From Acidobacteriota bacterium (lineage in GTDB: Bacteria; Acidobacteriota; Vicinamibacteria; Vicinamibacterales; 2-12-FULL-66-21), in NCBI GenBank assembly GCA_003222675.1, contig QHWT01000049.1, positions 41,257 through 105,256 on the forward strand: DNA of 64,000 nt. The letters run 5' to 3'. The translations under genes were made by a program, and so were the position numbers. Numbering within the stretch: position 1 is the first letter of the stretch; every line of letters begins with the position of its first letter. The notes under the pieces were generated by a model. That model was not told where the DNA came from. It worked only from the letters and a program-made list of their open reading frames with translations, and made no database searches. This document shows positions 5,117 to 64,000 of the stretch, piece by piece.

Positions 5117-5265
5117 CGGGGTTCACGGTTCACGGTTCACGGTTCACGGTTCACGGTTCACGGTTCACGGTTCAGGGTTCACGGTTCAGGGTTCACGGTT
5201 CAGGGTTCACGGTTCACGGTTCACGGTTCATGGTTCAGGGTTCACGGTTATGGTTCATGGTTCGT
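5117..5265. repeat. GGTTCAC heptamer tandem tract
   Basis: About 20 consecutive or near-consecutive copies of GGTTCAC with GGTTCAG and GGTTCAT variants fill the gap between the SirB1-like and HAD genes. The first copies abut the SirB1-like start region and the last copies supply the end of the HAD gene (..FTNHEP-stop). The same family occurs at 23570, 26625, 27220, 28110 and 59100. In the GGTTCAC direction the heptamer has no stop codon in any frame; the complement (GTGAACC) has TGA in every frame within 21 nt. Confidence 0.9.
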
Positions 5266-7785: not shown

Positions 7786-7791
7786 CAGAAC

Positions 7792-7901
7792 GGGGACACT
7801 CACACTTTTTCGCGACAATGGGACGAACTGTGAGTGTCCCCCTTCCAGAAACGGGGACACTCACACTTTTTCACGATAATGCGACGAACTGTGAGTGTCC
7901 C
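7792..7901. repeat. Two REP-like hairpins, GGGACACTCACA...TGTGAGTGTCCC
   Basis: Two tandem units (7792-7841 and 7853-7901). Each starts GGGGACACTCACACTTTTTC and ends GAACTGTGAGTGTCCC, so each forms a long imperfect hairpin. They lie between the adaptor and pump genes of one operon. The same sequence family occurs inside the reading frames of the FadN-like gene (24675-24750) and the VWFA gene (35636-35775). Such sequences are often associated with REP-associated tyrosine transposases; none is visible in this window. Confidence 0.85.
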
Positions 7902-7963
7902 GCTTTCAGGCTGCGTGCCTGAGCCAGCATGAGCCGTGCGCCCGTGAGCCATAAGCTCTAGCC

Positions 7964-23516: not shown

Positions 23517-23697
23517 AGCGCCGAGGGCCGAGGGCCGAGGGCCGAGGTCCGACGCGCACGGCGTACAACCTATCCCTGAACACGTGAACCCTGAACCGTG
23601 AACCCTGAACCGTGAACACGTGAACCCTGAACCGTGAACCGTGAACCGTGAACCATGAACCATGAACCATGAACCGTGAACCGTGAACCGTGAACCA
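23517..23697. repeat. GAGGGCC and GTGAACC repeat tracts
   Basis: First a short run of GAGGGCCGAGGGCCGAGG (23517-23550), then about 17 copies of GAACCGTGAACC-type units (23570-23697), directly after the FadN-like stop. Both families recur elsewhere in the window. On the minus (transcribed) strand the tract reads as GGTTCAC, the stop-free direction. Confidence 0.85.
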
Positions 23698-27186: not shown

Positions 27187-27219
27187 GCTCAGGCCGAAGC
27201 ACATTCCATGCCGAACCAC

Positions 27220-27297
27220 GCACCATGAACCATGAACCATGAACCATGAACCGTGAACCGTGAACCGTGAACCGTGAACCGTGAACCGTGAACCTAC
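27220..27297. repeat. GAACCATGAACCGTGAACC heptamer tract
   Basis: About ten copies of GAACCRT/GAACCGT between the four-helix-bundle gene and the end of the ABC permease gene. Same family as 5117-5265 and 23570-23697, in the orientation that reads GGTTCAC on the minus strand. Confidence 0.85.
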
Positions 27298-28106: not shown

Positions 28107-29182
28107 GAACCGTGAACCCCTGAACCGTGAACCCCTGAACCGTGAACCGATGAACCGTGAACCGATGAACCGTGAACCGATGAACCGTGAACCGATGAAC
28201 CGTGAACCGATGAACCGTGAACCGATGAACCGTGAACCGATGAACCGTGAACCGGTGAACCGTGAACCGGTGAACCGAGAAGCTTCAGATAAACCTCTTC
28301 TAATGGCGGCTCTTCATCAAACGCTTCGCGGATCTCCGCTCCCGCATCGACCAGCGACCGGATGACGACCGGCGTCATCCGATCCGGCGCTTCGAGCACC
28401 ATCGACAGATCCGTTCCGTGGATCTGCACGTCCTGTCCGCCGGCCCGCGCGGCGACGGCGGCAAGCGCCGGCAGCGGCGGATATGACGTCAGCATGCGCA
28501 CGCGCAGGCGGCGCCCGAACAAATCACGGCGCAACGCGGCAGGCTCGCCGACGGCGACCAGCGTGCGGCTCACCAGGCCCACGCGATCGGCGACGCGCTC
28601 GACCTCGTCGAGATTGTGCGTGGAGACGACGACGGTGCGCCCCTGGTGCCGCAGATCGCGGAGGAGATCGCGAACGGTGCGCGACATCTCGGGATCGAGA
28701 TTCGCCGTCGGCTCGTCGAGCAGGACGACCTCCGGGTCGTGCACGAGCGCGCGGCCCAGCGCAAGCTTCTGCTTCATGCCCTTCGAAAGGAGCGCCACGC
28801 GATCCGCCCGGCGATCCCACAGCTCGAACAGTCGCAGGATGCGCTCGACGGCGAGCGCCGCGCCGCGAACGCGGAAGAGGCGCGCGTACACCAGCAGGTT
28901 CTCGTCGACGGTAAGGAGATCCCACAGGCCCGGCGTTTCCGTCATGAAGCCGATACGCGCGCGAAGTGCCGCGCCCGACGCGCGCGTGAACGTCTCGCCA
29001 TCGATTGCCACGCGGCCCGATGAAGGAGGGATCAGCCCGCCAATCATCCTCAGTATCGTCGTCTTTCCCGCGCCATTCGGGCCGACGAGGCCGAAGACCT
29101 CGCCCGGACGGACCTCGAACGTCACGTTGTCGACGGCGCTCCGGTCGCCGAAGCGGCGGGTCACGTTGGTGACGGAGACCAC
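28103..29182 (-). CDS. ABC transporter ATP-binding protein with a VHGSS-repeat tail
   Basis: 359 aa from the GTG at 29182, the first start after the upstream repeat; the track start (29440) would be repeat-encoded. Walker A GPNGAGKTT, signature LSKGMKQKLALGRAL, Walker B VVLLDEPTANLDPE and switch STHNLDEVERVADRV are intact, so it is an active ABC-2 exporter ATPase. After ..EVYLKLLG, about residue 305, the protein continues as about eleven copies of VHGSS/VHGSP/VHGSG encoded by a 15-bp tandem repeat and stops only at the permease start codon. No good Shine-Dalgarno precedes the GTG. Confidence 0.88.
   Translation of the reverse strand: MVSVTNVTRRFGDRSAVDNVTFEVRPGEVFGLVGPNGAGKTTILRMIGGLIPPSSGRVAIDGETFTRASGAALRARIGFMTETPGLWDLLTVDENLLVYARLFRVRGAALAVERILRLFELWDRRADRVALLSKGMKQKLALGRALVHDPEVVLLDEPTANLDPEMSRTVRDLLRDLRHQGRTVVVSTHNLDEVERVADRVGLVSRTLVAVGEPAALRRDLFGRRLRVRMLTSYPPLPALAAVAARAGGQDVQIHGTDLSMVLEAPDRMTPVVIRSLVDAGAEIREAFDEEPPLEEVYLKLLGSPVHGSPVHGSSVHGSSVHGSSVHGSSVHGSSVHGSSVHGSSVHGSGVHGSGVHGS
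28110..28279. repeat. 15-bp tandem repeat (AACCGATGAACCGTG), in frame in the ABC ATPase gene
   Basis: Roughly eleven units, mostly AACCGATGAACCGTG, flanked by AACCCCTGAACCGTG and AACCGGTGAACCGTG variants. The unit is 7+8 bp derived from the GAACCGT heptamer family, giving a period divisible by three. Read on the minus strand it encodes V-H-G-S-S. The last units contain AGGGG 4-8 nt before the permease GTG and could serve as its Shine-Dalgarno. Confidence 0.9.
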
Positions 29183-29199: not shown

Positions 29200-29438
29200 T
29201 GTCGGGATGCGGGGTGCGGGATCCGGCGTGCGGGGTGCGGGATCCGGGGTGCGGGGTGCGGAGTGCGTCGCGAGTGTTGACTTCCGCATCCCGGTCTGCC
29301 GACGCGCATACTGTGAGCGAAGCCGCGCCGCACCCCGCGTCCCAAACCGCGCACCCCGCACCCCGCGTCCCGCACCCCGCACCCCGCACCCCGCACCCCG
29401 CGCCCCGCACCCCGCACCCCGCACCCCGCGTGAGTAGC
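29200..29438. repeat. GCGGGGTGCGGG / CACCCCGCACCCCG tracts
   Basis: Two blocks in opposite orientation (GCGGGGTGCGGGATCCGG at 29208-29265; CCGCACCCCGCACCCCGC at 29325-29430) around a 60-bp spacer, able to form a long stem. The block lies between the divergent ABC ATPase and CsoR-like genes. The same family occurs at 40573-40665. Confidence 0.85.
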
Positions 29439-34901: not shown

Positions 34902-37001
34902 CTACTTCCACGCCAGTGACGCGAGCGCCTCTTTCGCTTGCGGCACGTACGGGCCTCCCAGCTGCACGTACTTCTCGAAGCTCGCGATCGCGCGGCGGCG
35001 ATCGTGCTCGCCGCCGGCCCACTTCTGCGTTTCACGGACGTAGCGCTGCGACTTCATCATGCGCATCTGCAGCGCGCGGCCGAGATTGAAGTAGCCCAGC
35101 GCGTCCCCGGGAGCGATCGTCGTCGCGCGCTCGAACGAGTCGACGGCCGCGTCGAGCGCGCCGCGGCGGACCTGGATCACGCCGATCGCATTGGCGACCT
35201 CGGGGTCGGTGGTCCAACGCTTCTCCGCGTCGCGCAGTATGCCAATCGCGGCGCCTTCCTCGCGCTGCAGCAGGTAGGCGTCCGCCAGGTTGAAGTAGAC
35301 GGGCTCGAACTCCGGGACTGCGGCGCGGACGCGCTCCCACGATTGCGCGGCGTCGCGATAGCGCTGCAGTGCCAGGTGCGAGAGTCCCAGCGCGTAATGG
35401 ACCCAGGGTCGCGCGTCAGGTGATCGGGCCGCCTCGATGAACTCGCGCGACGCGGACTCGACGTCGCCGCGCTGATAGGCGGCCCAGCCTCTGGCGGCCG
35501 CCGTCGTCGGCGCGTCGTCATCGGTCCCGCGCAGCTGCTGGACGATCCGTCCCGACTCGATCTTCGACCGGATTGCGTTCGCCGCGGTGGTGGCTCCCTC
35601 GACAGCCGTCCCAGGGACGGACAGTGGCGGCTTCGGAACGGTGACAGTCACACTTTCCGTCGGAACTGTGAGTGTCCCCCTTTCTGAAACGGGGACACTC
35701 ACACTTTCGGGGGCCGGAACTGTGACTGTCCCGCTTTCCGTGCTCGGAACTGTGACTGTCACGCTTTCGGGCCGCGGGACCAGCAGCTTCGCCGGCTCGA
35801 GCGCAAGATAGCCGCGCCGGGCGCGGACGCGGACGCCGGGGCGCGTCACCTTCACCGAGATGCTGCGGTACTTGCCGTCAAGCTTGTCGTTCGTCGGGCT
35901 GTAGGCGAGCACGTAGTACGTCGCGGCGTCGCGCTGGATCGTGTCCAGCGCGCGGCCGAAGTTGTTTTCGTTCCGCATCGCCATGCCGCCAGTGTCGACT
36001 GCGAGGCTGTTCGTGCCATCTTCCTGCATGTCGAACCGCGCGGTCCCGCCTGCGGGGTCATCGGCCAGCTTCTGATCAATCAGATCCGATGTCGTGCCCT
36101 TGTTCAGCCCCCGCGCGTCGACGGTGTAGAAGTGCGCACCCGCGCGCGCGGCCTGGCCTACGGCGAGCCGCACCTCCGCATCCATGTTCTGCAGCACGAA
36201 CCCCTCGGACAGGAAGACCACGGTCTTCGCGCCCGGCATGCGCGCAAGCCCGCGCGACAGCGCCTCGACTACTGCAAGCGTTTCGTGGGTTGCCGTGCGG
36301 TACTGCGCGACCACGCGGTTCGCCTTCTCGCGGACCTGCAGGTCCGGTGGTGCCGCCCTGCACATGTCCGGCTCCTCGGAGCACGCGCGGATGATCGCGG
36401 TGTCGAGCGCGTCCTTCTCGTTATTGGCAATCCGAAACGCCTCGAACACATCGCGCAGGCGCGGCCACTCGCGCAGGTCGAGCTGACGAGATCGCATGTC
36501 GCCGGCGAACTTCGCGTTCGCAGCCGCTTTCCGCAGTTCCTCGCGATCGGACGTCAGGCGGTTGTTTGCCATCTTCCCGTCGACGACAACGCCGCCAATG
36601 TCTTCCGGACGGAATTTCTCAGCGATGAACTTCACCACGGCGTCGCGGGTGCGCTGAAGCCCCCCGGGCGACAGGTGCGTCGTGTCGAAAACGAACAGCC
36701 AGACCTCCGGCGGCGCGGAAGGCGCGGGCGGCGCGACAGGTGCGGAAGGTACTGTGGCTGCGGAAGGCGGTATCGGGCCAGAGGATGCCGCGTCAGCACC
36801 GATCAACGTGACGTGGAGGATCTTCTGCGCGACGCCGTCCTCTTCGAGCTGGAAATCGGCGGCCGACAGTCCCGTGACGAAGTGGCCGTTCTTGTCGGCG
36901 ACGCGCACATCGACTTCGACGAGCTCGGTGGCCGAGCGGAACGTCTGCCGCGGATCCTGCGCGGCGGCGATCAGCAGCAGAGCGAGGATGCCTGCCCGCA
37001 T
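34902..37001 (-). CDS. VWFA-related acidobacterial protein with TPR tail
   Basis: 699 aa. Signal peptide (MRAGILALLLIAAAQ), beta-sandwich start (TELVEVDVRVADKNGHFVTG; LSAADFQLEEDGVAQKILHV), VWFA-like domain (VWLFVFDTTHLSPGGLQRTR ... GAKTVVFLSEGFVLQNMDAE ... YYVLAYSPTNDKLDGKYRSI), then after about residue 500 tetratricopeptide repeats (AAYQRGDVESASREFIEAAR; YFNLADAYLLQREEGAAIGI; LGYFNLGRALQMRM). The family is expanded in Acidobacteria; its role is unknown. Between the VWFA and TPR parts (about 409-455) lies a VTVTVPSTESGTVTVPAPES-type stretch encoded by REP elements. Confidence 0.88.
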   Translation of the reverse strand: MRAGILALLLIAAAQDPRQTFRSATELVEVDVRVADKNGHFVTGLSAADFQLEEDGVAQKILHVTLIGADAASSGPIPPSAATVPSAPVAPPAPSAPPEVWLFVFDTTHLSPGGLQRTRDAVVKFIAEKFRPEDIGGVVVDGKMANNRLTSDREELRKAAANAKFAGDMRSRQLDLREWPRLRDVFEAFRIANNEKDALDTAIIRACSEEPDMCRAAPPDLQVREKANRVVAQYRTATHETLAVVEALSRGLARMPGAKTVVFLSEGFVLQNMDAEVRLAVGQAARAGAHFYTVDARGLNKGTTSDLIDQKLADDPAGGTARFDMQEDGTNSLAVDTGGMAMRNENNFGRALDTIQRDAATYYVLAYSPTNDKLDGKYRSISVKVTRPGVRVRARRGYLALEPAKLLVPRPESVTVTVPSTESGTVTVPAPESVSVPVSERGTLTVPTESVTVTVPKPPLSVPGTAVEGATTAANAIRSKIESGRIVQQLRGTDDDAPTTAAARGWAAYQRGDVESASREFIEAARSPDARPWVHYALGLSHLALQRYRDAAQSWERVRAAVPEFEPVYFNLADAYLLQREEGAAIGILRDAEKRWTTDPEVANAIGVIQVRRGALDAAVDSFERATTIAPGDALGYFNLGRALQMRMMKSQRYVRETQKWAGGEHDRRRAIASFEKYVQLGGPYVPQAKEALASLAWK
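35636..35775. repeat. REP-like AACTGTGAGTGTCCC elements inside the VWFA gene
   Basis: Five to six copies of GGAACTGTGACTGTCACAC / GGGGACACTCACACTTTC in both orientations, in frame in the VWFA gene and encoding a Val/Thr/Pro-rich linker before the TPRs. This is the largest of the three clusters of this family (others at 7792-7901 and 24675-24750). Confidence 0.88.
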
Positions 37002-40524: not shown

Positions 40525-40572
40525 TCAGCTTCTTCCGCCTGAAGGCGGAAGCCACATGGAGTCCAGAGACCG

Positions 40573-40668
40573 CCCCCCGCACCCCGCACCCCGACGCAGC
40601 CCGCACCCCGCACCCCGCACCCCGCGCCCCGCACCCCGACGCACCCCGCACCCCGCACCCCGTCCATT
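40573..40668. repeat. CCCCGCACCCCGCACCCCGACGC tract
   Basis: About nine copies of CGCACCCCG with GACG interruptions fill the gap between the VWFA gene start and the sulfatase-TPR stop. Same family as 29200-29438. Confidence 0.88.
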
Positions 40669-60032: not shown

Positions 60033-60122
60033 AAGTCGAGGTCCGAGGTCCGAGGTCCGAGGGTCGAGGTCCGAAGTCCGAGGTCCGCCGTCCGAGATTC
60101 GAGGTTCGAGATCCGAGGTCCG
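60033..60122. repeat. GAGGTCCGAGGTCCGAGG tract
   Basis: About ten GAGGTCCGA-type units between ctaA and the upstream lipoprotein gene; same family as 5929-5962 (HAD gene N-terminus) and 23517-23550. Confidence 0.85.
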
Positions 60123-60955: not shown

Positions 60956-62332
60956 TCAGCTCCCGCTCGCTTCCTTGAGCTTTCTGATGATCCGATCCTG
61001 GATCCAGTGCCGATCCCACCACTCGACCGGATTCACCATCTGCCCGTTGACGAGCATGGTGAAATGCAGGTGGTCTCCGCCCGCAAGCCCGGTTTGTCCG
61101 CTGCGGCCGAGCTCCTGTTCCTTCGCCACCTCCTGGCCAGGCTGCACGCCGATCGACGAGAGGTGCGCGTAGAGCGATTGCACGCCCATCCCGTGATCGA
61201 CGATGACGCAGTTGCCGTAGATGCCGAGCGGCGCCGCGTACACCACCTTGCCTTTGTTCGCCGAGACGACGGGCGAGTTCACCACCTTGGCGAGGTCGAA
61301 GCCGAGATGCACCTGGCGATCGACCTCCTTGCCTTGATAGATGTATGTGCGCTGATCGGCAAAGGCGGCTTCCACGGCGCTGCTCGTGAACGGATGGAAG
61401 ACGACGCCGGCCCACAGCATTTCCGGAGATGACTGCCTCGCGAAACTCGCGATCTTCTCCGCGTTCTTGCGCCGCAGCTCGCCGTTGATCACGAGGAACT
61501 TCTGCAGCGTGTCTCCCTCGGGCTTTACCTCTGTTGTCGTCTCGAGAACGGCAGGGACGACGCGATTGAGGAAGCTGTCGTTCAGCTCGATGCGGCTTCG
61601 CTTGAACGGCTTCGGGAATGTCAGCTTGTCGAAGTCCGCGCGCGCGCTGTTGCCCGCTTCGTCCCTGGCGTATGCATACATCGGCGTGTTGACGTCCTGG
61701 TCGAAGCGCAAGGCGAAGAAGGCGATCTTCACCGCCGGATCACTGATGTGGACCCCTTCGAGCTTCGCGCCGCTGGCGGGATAACCCGGATACGTGAGGT
61801 CGCCGACCTGGATGCCCGACTCTATGTCGCCGGGCATTGCGCGGTACACCACCATCTCCGAGCCGCCAAGGTTCACGTAATGCTTCGTCGAGAGGACGGC
61901 TATCGTCGGCTTCTCGAGCCGGACCTGTACATCGCGCGTCGCAATCGTTTGTCTCTTCCGCATCGCGCGCAGGACCGGGCGCGTGGCCGTGACGATGATG
62001 CGTGCGGGACCGGTCTTGAGGTCGGGAACCGCCTCGCGATCAATCGTGCGCGTGACGCGCACCTTGTCGACGGATTCCTGTTTCACCTCGGCGGACCCGG
62101 GAGAAGCCAGCGAGAAGAGCGGCGTCTGCCTGCCGTTCTGCTCGAACGCGATCGTGATCGTGTCCACCTTCGCGCCTGGCGTGGAGATCTCGACCTCAAC
62201 GGGAGTGGACTGGCCGACGTACTTGGTGGGCTTGGCGATCTCAACCACGGGTCCGGGGAGCCGTCCCGCGTAAACGAACACGCCGCCTGCCACGAGCGCG
62301 GCGATAAGTACCAGAGCCAGCAGATAACGCAT
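60956..62332 (-). CDS. M23-family metallopeptidase
   Basis: 458 aa. N-terminal TM anchor (LLALVLIAALVAGGVFVYAG), a long beta-rich middle, then an M23 (lysostaphin/LytM-type) domain at about residues 330-440 with zinc ligands in QVHLGFDLAKV (H-x3-D) and GGDHLHFTMLVNG (H-x-H), plus SLYAHLSSIGVQPGQ. Active site complete. It acts on peptidoglycan cross-links in the periplasm. Its 5' side faces the tandem array. Confidence 0.92.
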   Translation of the reverse strand: MRYLLALVLIAALVAGGVFVYAGRLPGPVVEIAKPTKYVGQSTPVEVEISTPGAKVDTITIAFEQNGRQTPLFSLASPGSAEVKQESVDKVRVTRTIDREAVPDLKTGPARIIVTATRPVLRAMRKRQTIATRDVQVRLEKPTIAVLSTKHYVNLGGSEMVVYRAMPGDIESGIQVGDLTYPGYPASGAKLEGVHISDPAVKIAFFALRFDQDVNTPMYAYARDEAGNSARADFDKLTFPKPFKRSRIELNDSFLNRVVPAVLETTTEVKPEGDTLQKFLVINGELRRKNAEKIASFARQSSPEMLWAGVVFHPFTSSAVEAAFADQRTYIYQGKEVDRQVHLGFDLAKVVNSPVVSANKGKVVYAAPLGIYGNCVIVDHGMGVQSLYAHLSSIGVQPGQEVAKEQELGRSGQTGLAGGDHLHFTMLVNGQMVNPVEWWDRHWIQDRIIRKLKEASGS

Positions 62333-62349
62333 ATCTCACGATGATAACA

Positions 62350-63100
62350 GCCACGGATGGCGCGGATACCGTTGGAGCCACGGATCACACGGACAACACG
62401 GATCAAAGAACATTAAAAAATTGAGATCCGTGAGATCCGTGAGATCCGTGGCCTCGCGTTGACCGAGTGGGTGTGGTTGCCAGAATCAGTGGTTCAACCG
62501 CCACGGATGGCGCGGATACCGTTGGAGCCACGGATTACACGGACCACACGGATCAAAGAACATCAAAAAATTCTGATCCCGGGAGATCCGTGAGATCCGT
62601 GGCCTCGCGGTTGACCGAGTGGGTGTGGTTGCCAGAATCAGTGGTTCAACCGCCACGGGTGGCGCGGATACCGTTGGAGCCACGGATCACCCGGACAACA
62701 CGGATCAAAGAACATTAAAAAATTCCGATCCGTGAGATCCGTGAGATCCGTGGCCTCGTGGTTGACGATGGGGCGTGGTTGCCAGAATCAGTGGTTCAAC
62801 CGCCACGGGTGGCGCGGATACCGTTGGAGCCGCGGATTACACGGACCACACGGATCAAAGAACATTAGAAAATTGAGATCCGTGAGATCCGTGAGATCCG
62901 TGGCCTCGTGGTTGACCGAGTGGGCGTGGTTGCCAGAATCAGTGGTTCAACCGCCACGGATGGCGCGGATACCGTTGGAGCCGCGGATCACACGGACCAC
63001 ACGGATCAAAGAACATTAGAAAATTGAGATCCATGAGACCCGTGAGATCCGTGGCCTCGCGGTTGACCGAGTGGGCGTGTGTTGCTACAATCAGTGGTTC
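62350..63100. repeat. 151-bp tandem array, about five units, upstream of tRNA-Glu
   Basis: Units repeat every 150-152 bp (anchor GGTTC at 62491, 62643, 62793, 62944, 63096). Each contains CCACGGATGGCGCGGATACC, GGATCACACGGACAACACGG, an A/T-rich AACATTAAAAAATT, GAGATCCGTGAGATCCGTGG, TTGACCGAGTGGGTGTGG and CCAGAATCAGTGGTTCAACC. The last unit runs into the tRNA-Glu promoter. This is not a CRISPR: units are near-identical with no distinct spacers. Confidence 0.93.
63063..63091 (+). promoter_or_regulatory. tRNA-Glu promoter TTGACC-N17-TACAAT
   Basis: A sigma70-type -35 (TTGACC, 63063-63068) and -10 (TACAAT, 63086-63091) with 17-bp spacing, ending 11 bp before the tRNA. In the four upstream array units the same place reads TTGACC-N17-CAGAAT (one copy TTGACG), so only the last unit has a good -10. 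Confidence 0.8.
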
Positions 63101-63102
63101 GA

Positions 63103-63177
63103 GCCGCTATCGTCTAGGGGTCAGGACACGTGGTTCTCAGCCACGGGACCGGGGTTCGAATCCCCGTAGCGGTACCA
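63103..63177 (+). tRNA. tRNA-Glu (CTC)
   Basis: Cloverleaf by eye: acceptor GCCGCTA with TAGCGGT, D-arm with AGGGGTCAGG, anticodon stem-loop CGTGG-TTCTCAG-CCACG (anticodon CTC), T-arm CCGGGGTTCGAATCCCCG and encoded ACCA end. Anticodon CTC reads GAG. No other RNA gene was found in the window. Confidence 0.93.
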
Positions 63178-63243: not shown

Positions 63244-64000
63244 ATGCTGACACGACGAACGATGATGATGCAGCTGCTCGCCGGCGCACTGCCGGTTGCC
63301 TGTCTGCCGCGCTGGGGCGGTGTGTTCCGCGACTCGGCATCTCAGCCGTCAGGCCACACGATTGCCGCGGGGCCGTTTCGACCGTCGTGGGATTCGCTCA
63401 AGCAGTACCGCGCGCCCGATTGGTTCCGCGACGCGAAGTTTGGCATCTGGGCGCACTGGACTGCGCAGTGCGTTCCGGAGCAAGGCGACTGGTACGCGCG
63501 CCGGATGTACCTCCAGGGTGATGCGGCCCACACCTTTCACGTGCGGACCTACGGGCATCCTTCCGAGTTCGGATTCATGGAGATCGACAACCTCTGGAAG
63601 GCCGAGAACTGGAATCCAGCGGCGCTGATGGATCTCTACATCAAAGCGGGAGCGAAGTACTTCGTCGCCCTGGCAAACCATCACGACAATTTCGACGCCT
63701 ACGATTCGACGCACCATGCGTGGAACTCAACCCGCATCGGGCCGAAGAAGGACATCGTCGGCACCTGGGCGAGGCTCGCGCGTCAGCATGGGCTGCGTTT
63801 TGGCGTCACCAATCACTCTGCGCACGCGTGGCACTGGTTCCAGCCCGCGTACGGTTACGACCCGGAAGGCGACCGCGCAGGCGTGCGCTACGACGCGTTC
63901 AGGCTCAGGAAGGAAGACGGCAAGGGCACATGGTGGGAGGGGCTCGATCCGCAGGAGTTGTACACCGGCCCGAACATGGTCATGCCCGACGGCATAAGGA
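63244..64000 (+). CDS. Alpha-L-fucosidase, GH29 (5' part, runs off the window)
   Basis: Open from the ATG at 63244 to the window end, so absent from the ORF track. It begins MLTRRTMMMQLLAGALPVAC, a twin-arginine-like/Sec signal. The mature part shows GH29 features: WFRDAKFGIWAHWTAQCVPE, GAKYFVALANHHDNFDAYDS, STRIGPKKDIVGTWARLARQ and GLRFGVTNHSAHAWHWF. It would release L-fucose from glycans in the periplasm or outside the cell. 252 codons are visible; the catalytic acid/base region is beyond the end. Confidence 0.9.
   Translation, partial: MLTRRTMMMQLLAGALPVACLPRWGGVFRDSASQPSGHTIAAGPFRPSWDSLKQYRAPDWFRDAKFGIWAHWTAQCVPEQGDWYARRMYLQGDAAHTFHVRTYGHPSEFGFMEIDNLWKAENWNPAALMDLYIKAGAKYFVALANHHDNFDAYDSTHHAWNSTRIGPKKDIVGTWARLARQHGLRFGVTNHSAHAWHWFQPAYGYDPEGDRAGVRYDAFRLRKEDGKGTWWEGLDPQELYTGPNMVMPDGIR

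Follow-up and report, generated by a model that had tools for sequence, protein, structure and literature searches.

Why should the promoter of a single tRNA gene stand at the end of a row of close copies, and where did the rest of each copy come from? In the 64,000-nucleotide stretch of Acidobacteriota DNA that we analysed (the window, from contig QHWT01000049.1), five tandem units of about 151 bp lie directly upstream of a tRNA-Glu gene. A preliminary description took them for amplified tRNA promoter DNA and offered three origins: slippage, scars of repeated integration at the tRNA gene, or a bank of weak or decoy promoters. We consider it likely that the array is a lineage-specific chimeric satellite, in which a hairpin repeat and the adjoining gene edge were duplicated together, the upstream promoters decayed and the one that was needed was kept.

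Results

TRF reported a period of 151 bp in 5.0 copies at window positions 62346-63100 (93% matches, score 1282). By alignment the array spans 62350-63102, with units starting at 62350, 62500, 62652, 62802 and 62953, unit lengths of 150, 152, 150, 151 and 150 bp and pairwise identities of 87.6-94.8%. The five units are non-coding and run head to tail, and their period exceeds 30 bp and is not a multiple of 3. Unit 5 abuts a tRNA-Glu gene with anticodon CTC (63103-63177, plus strand; ARAGORN; Rfam RF00005, 58.2 bits), and the coordinates first proposed for array and gene together, 62350-63177, hold. On the other side lies a divergent Peptidase_M23 gene (60956-62332, minus strand; PF01551, 3e-27), the conserved neighbour that we used for finding orthologous loci. 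An alpha-L-fucosidase-like gene follows the tRNA gene and runs off the window (63244-64000, plus strand; PF01120, 6e-52).

Each unit consists of a leader of ~27 bp, a hairpin of 76-77 bp and ~48 bp of tRNA promoter. The leader opens with two 9-mer-like words (it begins GCCACGGATGGCGCGG in unit 1), and the hairpin has 9-mer arms (GCCACGGATCACACGGAC.../...GATCCGTGAGATCCGTGGC) around an A-rich loop. All units are on the plus strand, and the hairpins occupy 62377-62452 in unit 1 (62350-62499), 62527-62603 in unit 2 (62500-62651), 62679-62754 in unit 3 (62652-62801), 62829-62904 in unit 4 (62802-62952) and 62980-63055 in unit 5 (62953-63102). The promoter part runs from CTCGCGGTTGACC to GTTC and stops just before the mature tRNA 5' end. 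The suggestion that the array was built from DNA upstream of tRNA-Glu was thus right in that promoter DNA has been amplified, but only the last ~48 bp of each unit are tRNA promoter; ~100 of the 151 bp, about two thirds, belong to a dispersed hairpin repeat of ATCCGTG type.

Neither the tRNA body nor its 3' end is repeated in any of the five units. This bears on the idea that repeated integration of a mobile element left scars here. Transfer RNA genes are common attachment sites, which speaks for it, but the copies are 5' of the gene and carry no tRNA 3' end, the flanking genes are those for M23 and fucosidase, and the M23-tRNA order is common to relatives; we regard integration scars as contradicted and barely credible.

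To place the array in its lineage we turned to 40 genomes, our own included, from which 30 loci were fetched; ARAGORN found tRNA-Glu in 23 of these. One locus (L038) was left out because its tRNA lies in the other orientation, leaving our own and 21 others. These relatives have in common a divergent M23 gene next to tRNA-Glu(CTC), but none of the 21 orthologous intergenic regions (20 and that of G001, a different species of the same genus) holds a promoter array. The G001 intergenic region measures 194 bp and has a single promoter, TAGAAT. Self-repeats occur in two of the 21 (L032 and L046), in both cases short repeats of other families.

The promoters of the five units are unequal. Degraded versions read TTGACC-N16-CAGAAT in units 1 (62459-62486), 2 (62611-62638) and 4 (62912-62939) and TTGACG-N15-CAGAAT in unit 3 (62762-62788), whereas unit 5 has an intact TTGACC-N17-TACAAT (63063-63091). 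Units 1-4 end in CAGAAT..CAGTGGTTCAACC and unit 5 ends in TACAAT followed by the leader CAGTGGTTCGA. The preliminary description had correctly seen that the real gene has TTGACC-N17-TACAAT and that the -10 is altered in every unit but the last; it had assigned a 17-bp spacer to the altered copies as well, where we count 16 bp or, in unit 3, 15. With a simple sigma70 score, whose base frequencies come from general knowledge and already weight the first two -10 positions towards T and A, unit 5 reached 14.44 and units 1-4 reached 9.46, 9.46, 7.96 and 9.46, compared with a mean of 6.97 and a 95th percentile of 11.12 for shuffled unit DNA. In 18 of the 21 relatives a site scoring 10.97-15.59 lies upstream of tRNA-Glu (in L041, L045 and L048 it is 84-92 bp from the tRNA), and its -10 begins with TA in all 18; the best scores of the other three were 0.52, 6.61 and 9.28.

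Because units 1-4 score below unit 5 and those 18 relatives, yet units 1, 2 and 4 match 9 of the 12 sigma70 consensus bases and keep TG before the -10, we predict that their promoters are weak or dead, with some transcription possible from units 1, 2 and 4. A bank of weak or decoy promoters, in which units 1-4 would bind RNA polymerase and thereby add pre-tRNA transcripts with long leaders or hold polymerase near the gene, could draw on this residual match and on the four sigma70-like sites in the array region, where shuffles lead one to expect 0.3. Set against it are the loss from units 1-4 of a -10 T that all 18 scored relatives possess, the shortened spacers and the lack of an array in any of the 21 relatives. 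Among units 1-4, moreover, variable columns occur at a similar density in the promoter (6 of 49) and hairpin (10 of 77) parts, and this gives no sign of constraint, at low power. Decoy promoters are possible in principle and unsupported, and we think them improbable; units 1-4 are presumably close to inert and selectively near-neutral.

Two further observations concern the tRNA-Glu promoter region. A GGTTC-like word right after the -10 is kept in all five units and also ahead of tRNA-Glu in most of the 21 relatives, and is perhaps the transcription start. The tRNA-Glu intergenic region of G003 (L030 1374-1500) is just 52 bp long and has heptamer-like repeats, no recognisable promoter and an intact tRNA.

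The differences between units record part of the history of the array. The units differ from one another at 25 alignment columns and in length. At eight alignment columns unit 5 alone stands apart, and both -10 changes and the spacer base are among the eight, so the damage either became fixed in a single ancestor of units 1-4 or passed between these copies. Other variants are mosaic, with some states common to units 1 and 3, different ones to units 2 and 4 and yet others to units 4 and 5; in a four-gamete test 17 of the 28 pairs formed by eight informative two-state columns fail. Since variants are shuffled between units, the copies probably exchanged sequence, by unequal exchange or conversion; with only five copies, repeated mutation is a possible source of the mosaic instead. 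The same differences bear on whether the array is an artefact of assembly. The genome is a draft in 152 contigs, and copy number could be miscounted in a short-read assembly, but the units differ in sequence and length and the array lies inside a contig of 262 kb, which makes an artefact very unlikely.

We also considered that the hairpins might act as RNA, in the manner of rtT, with transcription across the array yielding processed hairpin RNAs. Unit 5 has a stable predicted fold (-60.5 kcal/mol, z -3.55), which would suit such a role. The fold, however, results from the inverted 9-mer arms and needs no RNA role; none of the 47 predicted pairs shows a compensatory change across the five units, and several are broken in single units. 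With Rfam at a permissive threshold, the tRNA alone exceeded its gathering score in the array region. We rate hairpin RNAs as highly improbable. The same search returned weak microRNA models, which we took as chance matches to any long hairpin.

The hairpin part of the unit belongs to a family that is dispersed through the genome. The pattern CCACGGATNACACGGAT, with at most two mismatches, matched 112 times on the forward and 112 times on the reverse strand, as against 0 and 0 for the reversed pattern used as control. A 528-bp query from the array matched the genome 46 times; beyond the array itself the matches were leader and hairpin pieces, mostly 25-70 bp of hairpin arm, or once a tRNA. The family is patchy across 100 genomes of the order, with forward/reverse counts of 112/112 in our own genome, 105/85 in G003, 30/29 in G011, 23/25 in G095, 22/16 in G010, 15/13 in G004 and 1/2 in the same-genus G001. 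Other repeats exist too, since a few genomes abound in the reversed control pattern instead.

Had the 151-bp unit been an independent repeat family, it should have occurred far from any tRNA gene. The whole unit was not found in this way, but its larger, hairpin part was: none of the 44 other element loci taken from the matches listed lies within about 1.5 kb of a tRNA gene (a stretch of about 3 kb), so the element has no preference for tRNA genes. Nor is a transposase implicated in amplification of the hairpin repeat. The genome has two Y1 transposase (Y1_Tnp) genes, neither with the hairpin element within about 1.5 kb, and the one on contig C9 is flanked by GGGGACACTCAC palindromes, a family other than the ATCCGTG hairpin.

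Other repeats occur in the window. At 7789-7909 and 35637-35738, palindromes GGGGACACTCACAC..GTGAGTGTCCCC form tandem pairs; one of the two Y1 transposase genes (L181) has these words on its flanks, so they look like that transposase's own repeats. Short-period arrays, many with a 7-bp period (GGTTCAC, TGAACCG, ACCGTGA, CCGCACC, CGAGGTC), lie at 5120-5263, 23577-23696, 27213-27294, 28107-28281, 29328-29429, 40570-40662 and 60037-60122, and arrays of such kinds turn up in control stretches too.

A second gene edge has been amplified together with the hairpin. On contig C139 (L092 1434-2320) there are three tandem units of ~298 bp, each made up of the final 47 codons of a response-regulator/HD-domain gene (Pfam PF00072 and PF13487/PF01966), then the hairpin, then a short tail. 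This is the anatomy of the tRNA array: a gene edge plus the hairpin, in tandem and absent from a relative. In G001 and G010 the orthologous gene has no such repeat and the next gene, which from its start we take to be gatB, follows closely. One 8-bp word, ATGACCCG, opens the repeated stretch of the gene and recurs where the last unit ends; the original duplication at C139 may have used it as a substrate. Relatives bear hairpins or short-repeat runs of other kinds at the same edges, upstream of tRNA-Glu and downstream of the HD gene (L032, L046, L167, L168), as if such gene edges gathered repeats of whatever family the genome has.

The chimeric HD-tail unit is found without the gene on contigs C79 (L088 1335-1934, two units) and C9 (L081 1443-1891, one and a half units), so that this gene-edge chimera has been both amplified, at its C139 source, and dispersed. 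At the C9 site, the match to G001 breaks off at L081 1433 and resumes at 2053, and the ~208 bp that G001 has in between hold neither hairpin element nor gene tail; at the C79 site, a G001 contig matches one flank only. By reading, the units fall into subtypes A and B, arranged A-B-B at the source and B-A (C79) or half B-A (C9) at the new sites, which fits excised multimers. These features could be taken to mean that ATCCGTG hairpins form a capture-and-amplify system without a transposase, in which a hairpin at a gene edge duplicates along with the edge and units leave the array, for example as circles that recombine elsewhere, carrying gene fragments. We treat so general a system as a tentative and rather unlikely reading.

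Finally, we compared the 44 element loci (134 kb, from the matches listed) with 400 kb of control sequence, scoring as tandem any sequence that matched itself over 60 bp or more with an offset of 60-700 bp and leaving L124 out of all counts. The element loci held nine tandem arrays, five of them on the element and two of these five with an offset of at least 100 bp (C79 and C139); the array on C9 was missed by this criterion, and L115 has a 118-bp array away from its element. In the control there were four arrays, with shortest offsets all of 63-65 and none on the element, and the one control stretch that bears the element (L161) has no array. Because C139, C79 and C9 represent one event, the link of the element to long-period tandem arrays rests on two independent events, including the tRNA array given at the outset, and is suggestive only.

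Discussion

On the satellite reading that we favour, one copy of the dispersed hairpin repeat (with 9-mer arms such as CACGGATCA / ATCCGTGAG) would have sat directly upstream of the tRNA-Glu -35. The block from the outer edge of the hairpin to GTTC, short of the mature tRNA, would then have been duplicated head to tail, and further unequal exchange or slippage would have brought it to five copies and mixed variants among them. The copy next to the tRNA would have retained the working promoter. One upstream copy may have lost the first T of the -10 and one spacer base before it multiplied, or exchange may have spread the damage; either would explain why units 1-4 share it. We infer this order of events as well as the motor, in all likelihood ordinary duplication through slippage or unequal recombination around the hairpin, with exchange between copies afterwards. 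Of the three origins first proposed, slippage (or unequal exchange) is the best. The junction CAGTGGTTC-AACC-GCC has no clear microhomology from which the first duplication could be explained in detail. The spread of the HD-tail unit would require more, perhaps excised circles.

Known repeats at tRNA genes differ from the array described here. The scar of an integrative element's attachment consists of direct repeats of a tRNA 3' end, whereas no tRNA body is repeated here. The tyrT/rtT repeats of Escherichia coli, 150-180 bp in length, lie in tandem beside a tRNA gene and, like our units, hold a piece of the tRNA locus; they are on the 3' side and carry tRNA 3' sequence, whereas the units here are on the 5' side, combine promoter with a dispersed hairpin, lack the tRNA 3' end and, apart from the tRNA, match no Rfam family at its gathering score. 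Minisatellite or VNTR loci evolve by unequal exchange, and the mosaic sharing of variants between copies is a likeness to them.

REP/BIME palindromes with RAYT transposases (PMC3733652) are likewise dispersed intergenic hairpins in many copies. They are palindromes of 20-40 bp with a GTAG tag at one end, and the Y1 transposase gene is flanked by the repeat; the hairpin here measures 76-77 bp and has long 9-mer arms, units 1-5 contain no GTAG tag by reading, and neither Y1 gene has an ATCCGTG copy beside it. The available passages of the literature on tRNA-side tandem repeats, rtT and repeats in Acidobacteria (including PMC3733652, PMC3174227 and PMC6749651) describe neither the array nor the ATCCGTG family.

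The array illustrates how the regulatory DNA of a conserved tRNA gene can be remodelled by a short hairpin repeat, which multiplies the promoter while one copy stays intact. Taken with the array at the HD-domain gene, it suggests that repeats of this kind may duplicate and relocate parts of adjacent genes although no transposase is evident, and the main interest lies in the dispersed HD-tail chimera. A close comparison is with prokaryotic intergenic satellites: in the set of Subirana and Messeguer 2019 (PMC6749651), so far as the accessible part of that paper goes, transposed non-coding long-repeat satellites were detected only in Leptospira interrogans and Methanocella conradii. Our array resembles the satellites described there in its non-coding tandem units of more than 30 bp, a period that is not a multiple of 3 and its occurrence in one lineage; it differs in that each unit joins a hairpin repeat to a gene edge, and in that one such chimera has been dispersed.
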